From Natronobacterium gregoryi SP2 (lineage in GTDB: Archaea > Halobacteriota > Halobacteria > Halobacteriales > Natrialbaceae), in NCBI RefSeq assembly GCF_000230715.2, contig NC_019792.1:496001-560000 (forward strand): a DNA stretch of 64,000 nucleotides, written 5' to 3'. A program made the position numbers and the translations under genes. The notes under the pieces were generated by a model. It saw nothing but the letters and a program-made list of their open reading frames with translations, was not told where the DNA came from and did no database searches. Shown in pieces: positions 39,005-42,438 of this stretch (within the stretch, counting starts at the first letter, position 1; each line of letters opens with the position of its first letter).

Positions 39005-39076
39005 CGTCTGCGATTACTGCCGATCGCCAGAATGGGGTCGGCGATCGGTGAGAAGTGACGACAGGAAACCGTATCA
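39005..39076. repeat. Palindromic element copy 7 (shortened)
   Basis: It contains GATTACTGCCGATCGCC and GGTCGGCGATCGG as inner arms, and ends GACAGGAAACCGTATCA. The final TCA (39074-39076) is the stop codon of the minus-strand gene. The left end is eroded. Confidence 0.6.
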
Positions 39077-39862
39077 ATCGTCCCTGTCCGGCATCGTCGA
39101 AAACCGCGCCAGTGCTTTCATATCCGTCCGGTCGGACGGCGACGGAGCCGTCGTCGAGTGACGAACGACGCCACGGGACGACCGACGGCCGTCGGAACCC
39201 AGGCGGTCGAAGAGACCATCCCCCTGCTCGTCTCCGGTTTCGTCACTCGGTTCCTCGTCGGCAGTTTCGGCTTCGTCCCCCTCGTCGGCCGACCCCGCTT
39301 CGTCCCTACTGGCTTCGCCGTCACCAGCTGTTACCTCTTCGAGTCGCTGCTGGATCTGCGTTACCTCGTCGCCAAACTCCGTGACGGTCTCGCGCATCGT
39401 CGAACGGAGTCGATCCTCGAGGCTGCCGTCTCCGTCAGGCTGCTCTCTTCCGGTCGCCTCTTCGCCGGCCGACGGCTCCGAACCCCTGCCAGATTTCGAT
39501 TCGCCAGCCGCTCGTAAGACCCCAATCACGTCGTCGATCTCCGCTTTGTCCGCCTGGTCAGCGAGGTTGCCGAGCCGCAAGAGTCGCTCGAGATGCTCGA
39601 CCGCCGCTGGCTCGCCCTCGACGATGGCCTCCGGAATCGAATCGGGTTCGGAACCGTCCGGGAGCATCTCGAGTCCGACAGCCTCGAGGAGTACCTCTGG
39701 CTCCGTGGACTCGAGGAGGTCACTCGCTCGCGTTGCTGTCTCTACGAGGTCACCGGCCTCTCCGTTCGTCTCGGTCGGCCCGGCGACGACCGCCTCGCTC
39801 GCCGCGTCGGCCGCGTTCAGTATCTCGGTCACCCGATCTCGAACGTCGTCTGTTACTGTCAC
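39074..39862 (-). CDS. Acidic hypothetical protein, fourth gene of the acidic operon
   Basis: A 262-residue protein that I do not recognise. GTG 39862 is preferred to a GTG 13 codons upstream because GAGGAGG (minus strand) precedes it at 6 bp. Residues 1-125 look like an ordered helical domain (LLESTEPEVLLEAVGLEMLP, AAVEHLERLLRLGNLADQ). The middle is rich in Glu and Asp, and the end (DMKALARFSTMPDRDD) is less acidic. It sits 52 bp after the SAP-like protein on the same strand and probably belongs to its transcript. Confidence 0.6.
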   Translation of the reverse strand: MTVTDDVRDRVTEILNAADAASEAVVAGPTETNGEAGDLVETATRASDLLESTEPEVLLEAVGLEMLPDGSEPDSIPEAIVEGEPAAVEHLERLLRLGNLADQADKAEIDDVIGVLRAAGESKSGRGSEPSAGEEATGREQPDGDGSLEDRLRSTMRETVTEFGDEVTQIQQRLEEVTAGDGEASRDEAGSADEGDEAETADEEPSDETGDEQGDGLFDRLGSDGRRSSRGVVRHSTTAPSPSDRTDMKALARFSTMPDRDD

Positions 39863-39914
39863 TGTTTTCCTCCTCGTTTCTGGAGTCGGTTCGACAAACA
39901 CCGCGAGCCGGCAC

Positions 39915-40625
39915 CTATCCGGCGTCTGCAGTCTGCTCTTCCTCGTCGCTCTCGTCCCCCTCGCTCTCCGTCACCGTCTCGATGATCCGTTCGGTCATCT
40001 CCTCCCGGCTAAGGTTCGCCTTCACGCCGACATCTTTCGCAACGGACTGGAGATCCTGATAGGACATGACCCCGAGAAAGTCCTCGAGCGTGTCACGCCG
40101 GAGGTCCTCGAGGTCCCCGGGTGCGGGACTGTCGGCTTCGTCTTCCACTCTCGACTCGTCGGCTTGCTCTTCGCCTTCCGCATCGGCTTCTCCCTCACCG
40201 TCTTCGATCTCGTCTTCGCCTTCCGCGTCGACTGCTCGCTCGCTCGCTTTCTCGTCGCCCTCGAGGACCTCCTCGAGATCCGTCTCCTCCGTAACCACCT
40301 CGACCAGCGACTGGAGGGAATCGCTGACGCTGCCGTCCTCGAAGATCGCGCTGACGCCCGACCGGACCGCTGCCCCGACCTCGGATCGAAGGTCGATCTC
40401 GTCGTCGGTCTCGAGTGCCTGCGAGAAAGTCTCGTGGAGTTCGCGTCCGATCGACGTGCCGAGTTCACGCCCGGCGCGTTCGCCGAACTGGCGACCGACG
40501 GCCGCACCGATCTCGCCGCCGTCGAGTTCGTCCTCGATGCTGCCATCGCCGACCAGTCCGGAGACGCCGACCTGGTCGCTGACCTCGTCGGCGACGGCCT
40601 GTTTCAGTCCCGGCCCCTCACTCAT
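39915..40625 (-). CDS. Acidic protein with glycine-zipper segment and C-terminal SAP/Rho-N-like motif
   Basis: A 236-residue protein. Residues about 37-62 (GGEIGAAVGRQFGERAGRELG) have glycines every four residues, a glycine-zipper-like helix that can pack against membranes or other helices. A long Glu/Asp-rich linker follows. The C-terminal 45 residues (LEDFLGVMSYQDLQSVAKDVGVKANLSREEMTERI, in two short helices) resemble a SAP or Rho-N motif, which often binds nucleic acids. It overlaps the upstream gene by 8 bp. Function unknown. Confidence 0.62.
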   Translation of the reverse strand: MSEGPGLKQAVADEVSDQVGVSGLVGDGSIEDELDGGEIGAAVGRQFGERAGRELGTSIGRELHETFSQALETDDEIDLRSEVGAAVRSGVSAIFEDGSVSDSLQSLVEVVTEETDLEEVLEGDEKASERAVDAEGEDEIEDGEGEADAEGEEQADESRVEDEADSPAPGDLEDLRRDTLEDFLGVMSYQDLQSVAKDVGVKANLSREEMTERIIETVTESEGDESDEEEQTADAG

Positions 40626-41139
40626 CGCTCTCGCCCTCGTCTTCGGACTCGTCTACCTGTCGCTCGCTCGCTTCTTCTTCGTCGTCTTCATCAGTTTCGC
40701 CGCCGTCTTCGGCGTTCTCTTTTTCCGACTCGTCTTCTCCCTCATCTTCGCTCTCGTCCGCGATTGCGTCTTCCTCCGCAGTTTCCCCGTCACTCTCCTC
40801 CTCGGCTGTCTCCCCGTCTTCGTCTGCCGTCTCGTCTTCCGCCGTTTCGTCTGTCTCGTCGCTCCCCACCAACTCCTCGAGTGCGATCTCGCCGATCGTT
40901 CGCCCGATCCGCTCGCCGAATTTCCGTCCGACGACCGCGCCAATTAGTCCGCCAAGCGCCTCGCCGAGCGACTGCTCTTCGCTGATCTCGTCCTCCCAGC
41001 GGGTGCCCTCGACAAGTTCGTCGACATCGATGTTCTCGGTCACCTTCTGGAAGTCGACCCGCTCGACGAGCGACTCCGAGTCTGTCCCCGTCTGCGATTC
41101 GCCATCCGCTTCTGACGCTGTTGTTGCTGTCTCACTCAT
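40618..41139 (-). CDS. Acidic protein with glycine-zipper segment
   Basis: A 173-residue protein. Its conserved core (about residues 50-90) reads LGEALGGLIGAVVGRKFGER and IGRTIGEIALEELVG, again a glycine-zipper pattern closely similar to the next gene product, which suggests a pair of paralogues or partners. The second half is almost only Glu, Asp, Thr, Ser and Gly. It overlaps the upstream gene by 4 bp (ATGA) and the downstream gene by 8 bp. I cannot assign a function. Confidence 0.62.
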   Translation of the reverse strand: MSETATTASEADGESQTGTDSESLVERVDFQKVTENIDVDELVEGTRWEDEISEEQSLGEALGGLIGAVVGRKFGERIGRTIGEIALEELVGSDETDETAEDETADEDGETAEEESDGETAEEDAIADESEDEGEDESEKENAEDGGETDEDDEEEASERQVDESEDEGESDE

Positions 41140-42329
41140 AGTTCGGCCTCCGTTTCTGCCGGCTCTTCGTCGGTCTCCGATTCTTCGATCCCCGACTCGA
41201 GTTGGTCGATCAACGCCTGGAGTGTCTCGCGAACGACCGTCGCCACGATCGCCTCGATGGGCAGGTTCGGAACGAACCCGGCCAGCCGGTCTTTCACCCA
41301 CTCGGTCGCGGACGAGAGGCTCCCTCGAAGCCAGCCTCCAGCCCTGGAGAACAAGCCACCGTCGGCCCCAGCCGCTTTTTCGTCCATGTCCTCTGTCTCC
41401 GCTTTGCCTCTCTTTGCTGGTGACCCACCACGACCGAACAGGCGACCGACCACCCGCTTTGGCGCGGTAAGAACCGTCATAGCGCCGTCTTTGAGCCGAT
41501 CGATCAGTCCGATGACCCACTCTTTTGGCTTGCCCAGGAGTGACGTCACCGTGTCCAGGACAGCACGGGGGCCGTCCAGCAACCCCGACACGGCTGACAG
41601 GAGATTCCCGAGCAAGTTGTTCTCGCCCGGCCGAGCCGACACGTCGAGCGTTACCGCGTCGAGGTTGACCTCCAGACCGAGCAGATCGAGAAACAGCCCA
41701 TCGAGATCGAGGTGGAGGACACCAGCGGTCTCGTCGCTTTCGTAGACGTCGTCGGCGTCCTCGACGTGGTACTCACCGTCTTCCTCGCTTTCGTCTCCGT
41801 CCTCTCTCTCACCGTCTTCCTCGCTTTCGTCTCCGTCCTCTCTCTCACCGTCTTCCTCGCTTTCGTCTCCGTCCTCTCTCTCACCGTCTCCCTCGCTTTC
41901 GTCTCCGCCCTCTCTCTCACCGTCTCCCTCGCTTTCGTCTCCGCCCCCTCTCTCACCGTCTTCCTCGCTTTCGTCTCCGCCCCCTCTCTCACCGTCTTCC
42001 TCGCTTTCGTCTCCGTCCTCTCTCTCACCGTCTCCCTCGCTTTCGTCTCCGCCCCCTCTCTCACCTTCTTTCGCCTCCGTTTCCGCTTTGCCTTCCGTCT
42101 CTTCGTCTGCCTCCGTTTCCTCGTCACTTCTGAGTTCTTCCCGTGTTTCGTTCTCGCTCGCACCGTCGTCACTCTCGGTTTCGTCCGCCCGCTCGGCCGC
42201 TGCTCGACCGCCGTCGGTCAGGACTCGAGTCGTCGATCGATCACGTCGGCCGGGGCGACTCGCGCTGGCGTCGACCTCGCCGGGACTCACACGCTCGTCA
42301 ATCCCCTCACCGTCTGATCCCGCTGTCAT
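41136..42329 (-). CDS. Acidic repeat protein with beta-type LLGLEVNLD motif, first gene of the acidic operon
   Basis: A 397-residue protein from ATG 42329. Residues about 91-186 are eight 12-residue repeats of the type GDESEEDGERED. Next comes a hydrophobic, patterned segment VLHLDLDGLFLDLLGLEVNL followed by DVSARPGENNLLGNLLSAVSGLLDG. As I recall, this alternating motif ending in NLLGNLL recurs in putative surface proteins of haloarchaea and actinobacteria. The C-terminal 150 residues contain amphipathic helices (FSRAGGWLRGSLSSATEWVKDRL). No signal peptide is seen. It leads an operon of four acidic proteins and may be part of a multi-protein assembly. Confidence 0.65.
   Translation of the reverse strand: MTAGSDGEGIDERVSPGEVDASASRPGRRDRSTTRVLTDGGRAAAERADETESDDGASENETREELRSDEETEADEETEGKAETEAKEGERGGGDESEGDGEREDGDESEEDGERGGGDESEEDGERGGGDESEGDGEREGGDESEGDGEREDGDESEEDGEREDGDESEEDGEREDGDESEEDGEYHVEDADDVYESDETAGVLHLDLDGLFLDLLGLEVNLDAVTLDVSARPGENNLLGNLLSAVSGLLDGPRAVLDTVTSLLGKPKEWVIGLIDRLKDGAMTVLTAPKRVVGRLFGRGGSPAKRGKAETEDMDEKAAGADGGLFSRAGGWLRGSLSSATEWVKDRLAGFVPNLPIEAIVATVVRETLQALIDQLESGIEESETDEEPAETEAEL
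41773..42060 (-). repeat. 36-bp in-frame tandem repeat (eight units)
   Basis: Eight contiguous 36-bp units starting at 41773, 41809, 41845, 41881, 41917, 41953, 41989 and 42025. They encode 12-residue acidic repeats and differ only at a few positions (GTC/GCC, CTC/CCC). No spacers are present. High uniformity suggests recent slippage or gene conversion. Confidence 0.95.
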
Positions 42330-42438
42330 TATTCGGCAAGACGGACGCGAGACAGCGTTGTGGTGGTTTGGCTTGCGTGTGCGATCCTGGCGCACGAACA
42401 CGGCCAGAAACAGCTATCCGGACGAAACTGGATGAGAG

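Follow-up and report, generated by a model that had tools for sequence, protein, structure and literature searches.

Among the closest described counterparts of the genes reported here are two gas-vesicle proteins, GvpC and GvpI. In the Halobacterium system, GvpI binds GvpH and oligomerises other Gvp proteins, and its deletion leads to extremely long vesicles, as described in passages of PMC4390858 and PMC7688916. Cyanobacterial GvpC is characterised in part of PMC9994262 by 33-residue repeats, one per four GvpA. Sections of a review (PMC4390858) describe the gas-vesicle clusters of Halopiger, Haladaptatus, Natrinema, Natrialba and Natronobacterium as lacking gvpC and gvpDE and treat it as unknown whether such clusters are expressed; in published reviews the gvpC-less clusters stand without an explanation. 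For Natrialba magadii the absence of gvpC is also stated in PMC3403918, which in the portion concerned reports that the GvpI homologue is extended by a long stretch at its N-terminus and that the cluster contains one additional gene. A table in PMC9501494, in contrast, lists gvpACNO for the same five genera. Here we analyze a window of 64,000 nucleotides from Natronobacterium gregoryi SP2 (positions 496001-560000 of NC_019792.1, a closed haloarchaeal chromosome of 3.79 Mb) and in it a four-gene operon, P1 to P4, which we identify as an undescribed part of the gas-vesicle (gvp) gene set. The operon was not described in the literature searched, a search whose reach ended short of most subscription papers.

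P1 to P4 are four acidic open reading frames on the minus strand that run from 42329 to 39074 (Table 1). A sequence-only reading of the window had pointed out these genes and their close spacing, and the coordinates agree: P1 and P2 overlap by 4 bp, P2 and P3 by 8 bp, and a gap of 52 bp separates P3 from P4. None of the four proteins matches Pfam or NCBIfam above cut-off, and PHROGs returned weak matches only. The order P1-P2-P3-P4 is kept in all 14 loci examined from the same family. Searching genome contigs with the P1 core yielded 66 named loci, all haloarchaeal, of which 52 carry the four genes in order with median gaps of -4, 44 and 48 bp. This conserved order indicates that the operon is more than a chance arrangement. 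The sequence-only reading was right to see in it an undescribed protein system that comprises several genes and is conserved, with parts that pack helices and a part that is SAP-like. Bacterial relatives of P1 were absent from the 66 loci of the contig search (single peptide pattern), and a plasmid search for P1 relatives returned two records, both haloarchaeal and neither bacterial. The GAxxGRxFGERxGRxxG-type zipper pattern noticed in two of the products, P2 (GAVVGRKFGERIGRTIG) and P3 (GAAVGRQFGERAGRELG), is real and reflects their homology. Comparison of the two profiles by hhalign gave 99.6% over 63 columns versus at most 0.1% for column-shuffled P2, and the P2 core profile retrieves P3 in its own genome with an E value of 1.6e-6. 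Judged by these profiles, P2 and P3 are paralogues via their N-terminal zipper domain. Both have the GxxxG spacing of the glycine-zipper families PF13488 and PF05433, but P2 scores below the cut-offs of these families (14.7 and 13.2 versus 25 and 24.2).

The operon is inherited together with gas-vesicle genes. We surveyed an order-wide sample of 213 haloarchaeal genomes, each at least 90% complete, in which the profiles matched P1 in 74 genomes, GvpA in 94 and GvpC repeats in 11. Two P1 matches (G103, G151) were dropped as twin-arginine translocation (TAT)-type secreted proteins that have the same core and do not belong to the operon, and three weak GvpC matches (G075, G081, G096; E 4e-4 to 7e-4) were removed, leaving 8 strong ones. 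Operon-type P1 and GvpA then occurred together in 72 genomes, P1 alone in none, GvpA alone in 22 and neither in 119 (Fisher p 1.8e-37; these p-values ignore the relatedness of the genomes). The association persists when all 74 P1 matches are retained (73/1/21/118, p 1.8e-36) and outside the Natrialbaceae (29/0/22/116, p 6e-19), and gvp genomes of more than one kind are found within each of five families (f4, f5, f6, f12, f17). All 43 gvp-positive Natrialbaceae of the sample carry the operon, and its three gvp-negative members of this family (G036, G083, G163) have neither P1 nor P2. The P2 core was detected in 77 of the 213 genomes, including all 72 P1 genomes; 76 of the 77 are GvpA-positive, and the remaining one (G132) is a weak 25-residue match. 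Among the first 61 relatives analyzed, the C-terminal part of P1 was matched in 36, GvpA-family genes were present in all 36 P1-positive genomes, and two genomes (G010, G057) had gvp genes without P1.

In the window genome the operon lies about 2.47 Mb from the gvp cluster, which reads gvpM L K J I H G F, followed by A N O on the opposite strand. M, L, K, J, G, F, N and O of this cluster were confirmed by Pfam and NCBIfam and gvpA by a PF00741 search, while gvpH and the gene in the gvpI position were named by position and weak or no matches. Such a distance is the rule in the Natrialbaceae, where none of 43 named loci has gvp genes within 9 kb, and it would be the reason why membership of the operon in the gvp set was missed. 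Other lineages show the linkage directly. Eight of the 66 named loci have gvp genes within 9 kb, all of them among the 23 loci from outside the Natrialbaceae, a count that leaves out a GvpH-like call in L120 and GvpI-like calls in L137, L154 and L156. At the genome level, 15 of the 29 P1 genomes from outside the Natrialbaceae have P1 no more than 7 kb from a GvpA-family gene. The four genes directly follow the gas-vesicle genes in a genome of another family (G048), and the full P1-P4 set adjoins gvp clusters in L092 and L177. P1-P2 pairs are found between gvpH and gvpJ in G041 and Halocatena and beside gvpO in G049 and Halalkalicoccus. On a plasmid of Halocatena salina the pair is flanked by gvpH on one side and the gvpI-position gene on the other, midway along the gvp operon; P1, P2 and the gvpI-position gene are all annotated there as 'hypothetical protein'. 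The operon is thus very probably a member of the gas-vesicle gene set. Its strict co-occurrence with gvp genes, its insertion into gvp clusters of other families and the homology of P4 with GvpI speak against the free-standing system envisaged by the sequence-only reading; assignment to a known structure such as the gas vesicle, which that reading had itself listed as speaking against its proposal, is largely what we found. From its idea of a self-assembling complex we retain that the proteins are plausibly part of a self-assembling structure, though not of a system of their own.

GvpC and P1 are mutually exclusive among genomes. Of the 94 gvp genomes, 8 have strong GvpC, and all eight lack P1 (0 with both, 72 with P1, 8 with GvpC, 14 with neither; p 2.9e-6). 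An operon-free genome of the Natrialbaceae family (G010) encodes a divergent GvpC (L082 11684-12931; BLASTP 4e-11 against classical GvpC) that PF05465 misses, and a gap test was therefore added. In all 16 clusters examined from P1 genomes, no more than 172 bp separate gvpA from gvpN/O, which leaves no room for gvpC; in 5 of 5 GvpC clusters the distance is 1.2-1.3 kb. GvpC of Halobacterium (PF05465) resembles P1 in being acidic and predicted to be helical and in bearing repeats, which in P1 vary from copy to copy, and its strong matches in the sample occur only with gvp genes. Unlike GvpC, to which it has no detected sequence homology, P1 possesses an LLGL core, and its gene does not sit between gvpA and gvpN/O as gvpC does. 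By eye, the C-terminus of the divergent GvpC appears SAP-like.

P4 links the operon to GvpI. Comparison by hhalign with the long GvpI of gvpC-less clusters (Nmag_0338/Htur_2370 type) gave 99.7% over 236 columns, whereas ten other families reached at most 0.5% and 10 column shuffles 0.0-0.1%. The STxP motifs agree as well: the C-terminal NPTAxSTxP ... STVP motif of GvpI also ends P4. Three classical GvpI aligned with P4 in the tail only (75%, E 2.5e-5), and the C-terminal motif is common to classical and long GvpI (98.9%). The relationship is detected by profile-profile comparison alone; hmmsearch with the P4 profile misses the GvpI of its own genome. On the basis of these alignments, P4 is a paralogue of long GvpI. 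Unlike the latter it lies outside the gvp cluster in the Natrialbaceae, and not between gvpH and gvpJ, and coexists with a separate long GvpI of the cluster itself. Classical GvpI has a basic N-terminus that P4 lacks.

Table 1. Features of the P1-P4 operon, in positions of the window.
Feature	Position	Strand	Description
P1	42329-41136	-	397 aa; variable acidic N-terminal tract, conserved LLGL core, amphipathic helical C-terminus
P2	41139-40618	-	173 aa; glycine-zipper helical domain and acidic tail
P3	40625-39915	-	236 aa; glycine-zipper domain paralogous to P2, acidic linker, C-terminal SAP-like domain
P4	39862-39074	-	262 aa, GTG start; acidic paralogue of long GvpI of gvpC-less gvp clusters (profile comparison)
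Conserved promoter-like element ACGCAAGnnnAACCACCACAACG	42356-42378	-	26 bp 5' of P1 start
P1 tandem array	41772-42070	-	36-bp unit, 8.3 copies, 95% matches; codes for the 12-residue acidic repeat
P1 core	41532-41735	-	68 aa with LHLDLDGLFLDLLGLEVNLDAVTLDVSARPGENNLLGNLL; most conserved part of P1; source of search profile A1
P1 C-terminal helical region	41139-41531	-	11-residue amphipathic repeats in many relatives; window copy p 0.155
P3 glycine-zipper helix	40407-40520	-	model residues 36-73
P3 C-terminal SAP/Rho-N-like helices	39954-40121	-	model residues 169-224

P1 belongs to no Pfam or NCBIfam family. The LLGLEVNLD/NLLGNLL segment, which had drawn attention in the sequence alone, proved to be its most conserved part, with 16 of 70 columns invariant across 19 sequences. 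The 12-residue acidic repeat described for the same protein is indeed encoded by a tandem array in the window, but its relatives have merely a variable acidic tract at this position, and the repeat itself is not conserved in the alignment. In the C-terminus, pooling 61 testable copies revealed a periodicity with z values of 23 at lag 11, 12.5 at lag 22 and 5.3 at lag 33; as the copies are related, z counts no independent events. Individually, 31 of the 61 copies reached p<0.01; six more copies did not lend themselves to the test. Amphipathic repeats of 11 residues are compatible with a helix that lies along a surface, and by analogy, not homology, three such units would correspond to one 33-residue GvpC repeat. 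We regard P1 as a candidate shell-associated protein that is GvpC-like in role. AlphaFold models the C-terminus of P1 with low confidence (mean predicted local distance difference test, pLDDT, 63), and sequence searches of the PDB with P1 and P3 gave weak matches only. The likeness of LVGIEI and LLGLEV had raised the idea that the P1 core is homologous to the GvpA beta-hairpin, which was rejected (hhalign 0.2%). TAT-type secreted proteins at L175 7357-7941 and L176 6763-7401 share the LLGL/LLGNLL core, so that this core appears to be a wider domain of unknown function.

The promoter-like element upstream of P1 recurs in 35 of the 43 Natrialbaceae loci with no more than 4 mismatches and, when up to 5 mismatches are allowed, in none of the 23 others; the best of 20 shuffles per upstream region gave 5 to 7 mismatches. 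At up to 3 mismatches it is the only copy in the window genome, so that the operon appears to be under separate control. L081 contains three matches to the core of the element with 2 mismatches, none of them at the gvpA or gvpF starts, and on both grounds a signal shared with the gvp genes was rejected. A typical TATA box was not noticed by eye.

Overall, we favor, with a probability of about 0.6, the reading that P1 to P4 are missed gvp genes that serve a gvpC-less type of haloarchaeal gas vesicle. They would provide shell-associated and size-control proteins in the place of GvpC. The ribbed shell would be formed in the customary way by GvpA, J, M, N, O and F to L. P1, whose conserved core is hydrophobic and whose C-terminal helices are amphipathic, would lie on the shell surface at the place that GvpC takes in Halobacterium. 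P2 and P3 could pack into helical bundles through their glycine zippers, P3 might dock partners via its SAP-like end, and P4 as a second GvpI may regulate the assembly of accessory proteins and vesicle length. The proposal that the operon replaces GvpC in the shell best joins the exclusion, the anatomy of P1 and the homology to GvpI, and we hold it at slightly less than even odds. With a little more reserve, one may propose that haloarchaea possess a second type of gas vesicle, whose coat protein GvpC has given way to a non-homologous module of four proteins, namely a P1 coat, a P2/P3 zipper scaffold and P4 as second GvpI. Further out, the GvpA shell may with this module become a structure different from a large flotation vesicle, and the absence of visible vesicles reported for the reviewed carriers would then be accounted for.

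Several observations weigh against the favored reading. Species with gvpC-less clusters are all given as Vac-, that is without visible vesicles, in the review passages concerned (PMC4390858). Fourteen gvp genomes have neither operon-type P1 nor strong GvpC, and most of the clusters examined from these genomes lack a gvpC-sized gap; GvpC-less clusters thus do not strictly need P1. One genome (G019) retains P1-P4 (L038), with its gvp locus reduced to a gvpJ/M remnant (L090 7088-7792) and no GvpF/L found in the genome. Either its gvp genes were lost recently or the operon is used without vesicles, and the operon can therefore persist in the absence of gas vesicles. P1 has no homology to GvpA detectable by hhalign (the 0.2% mentioned above), and searches of P1-P4 and of 62 P1 C-termini gave no match to the Halo_GVPC repeat PF05465. 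In the window copy of P1 the 11-residue periodicity does not reach significance, and from most copies outside the Natrialbaceae it is missing. Finally, the promoter-like element was not found near the own gvp cluster.

A different explanation, which we consider rather unlikely, is that the operon is a module for vesicle assembly and length control and not a coat, with nothing replacing GvpC on the shell. P4 would then double GvpI, the P2/P3 scaffold would gather GvpH, L and others, and P1 would nucleate or cap vesicles. The paralogy of P4 and GvpI agrees with this, as do the extremely long vesicles of GvpI deletions and the oligomerisation of Gvp proteins by GvpI in the described parts of PMC4390858 and PMC7688916, and the insertion of P1-P2 beside the gvpI-position gene in Halocatena. 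However, assembly functions alone leave the mutual exclusion of P1 and GvpC unexplained. Far less probable is a separate structure or duty that travels with the gvp genes for ecological reasons: the operon has its own promoter element, is never near gvp genes in the Natrialbaceae and is kept in G019 despite a decayed gvp cluster, but it is inserted inside gvp clusters of several families, its P4 is homologous to GvpI, and operon-type P1 occurs in 0 of 119 GvpA-negative genomes. Most improbable of all is that GvpC-less clusters and operon have remained as relics of a flotation system that was lost in species reported to be without gas vesicles: the Vac- phenotype of the carriers in the reviewed passages (PMC4390858) and the gvp decay in G019 stand against open frames and gene order kept in 14/14 and 52/66 loci of many genera and a promoter element conserved in 35/43 Natrialbaceae loci, which speaks for current use.

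If P1 to P4 are missed gvp genes, as we favor, the operon supplies candidate missing parts of gvpC-less clusters, and heterologous reconstitution with the complete gene set becomes possible to try. GvpC is the usual handle for gas-vesicle engineering, and an independent shell-binding system would offer a new one.

The C-terminal end of P3 had been described as SAP/Rho-N-like. AlphaFold predicts confident helices here (pLDDT block means 89-96) that form a three-helix SAP-like domain, and the predicted fold bears a weak resemblance to the helix-extension-helix of SAP and Rho-N domains (Rho, DEK). Unlike these domains, the end of P3 is under the Pfam cut-off (SAP_new25, E 0.051) and belongs to a very acidic protein. 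Rho_N was matched at E up to 0.01 by 2 of 53 P3 homologues, and Foldseek returned weak matches, including the Rho N-terminus and DEK (about 1 Å over 42 columns, E above 2; for example, E 3.0 with a root-mean-square deviation of 1.1 Å). Because ribosomal protein S3 (L046, L050) is matched by the SAP-like end of P3 as well, P3 was discarded as an operon marker and the counts were based on the P1 and P2 cores. P3 matches occurred in 38 of the 61 related genomes, some of those outside the family being ribosomal S3. The proteins at L046 7223-8170 and L050 7236-8330, which we take to be ribosomal protein S3 of other haloarchaea, have a C-terminal extension with the SAP-like motif of P3 (MSYRELQLLAKDVGVKANLSREE in L046). 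Zipper proteins also occur in gvp surroundings without P1. Short P2-like ones lie 3' of gvpM in L160 (4632-5042), L163 (12246-12659) and L165 (4877-5590) and end in a variant motif such as LSDEELEELAGTLVDEL, and P3-like ones are located beside a second GvpO-like gene in the gvp clusters of L164 (5756-6436), L167 (9563-10279) and L169 (8034-8672).

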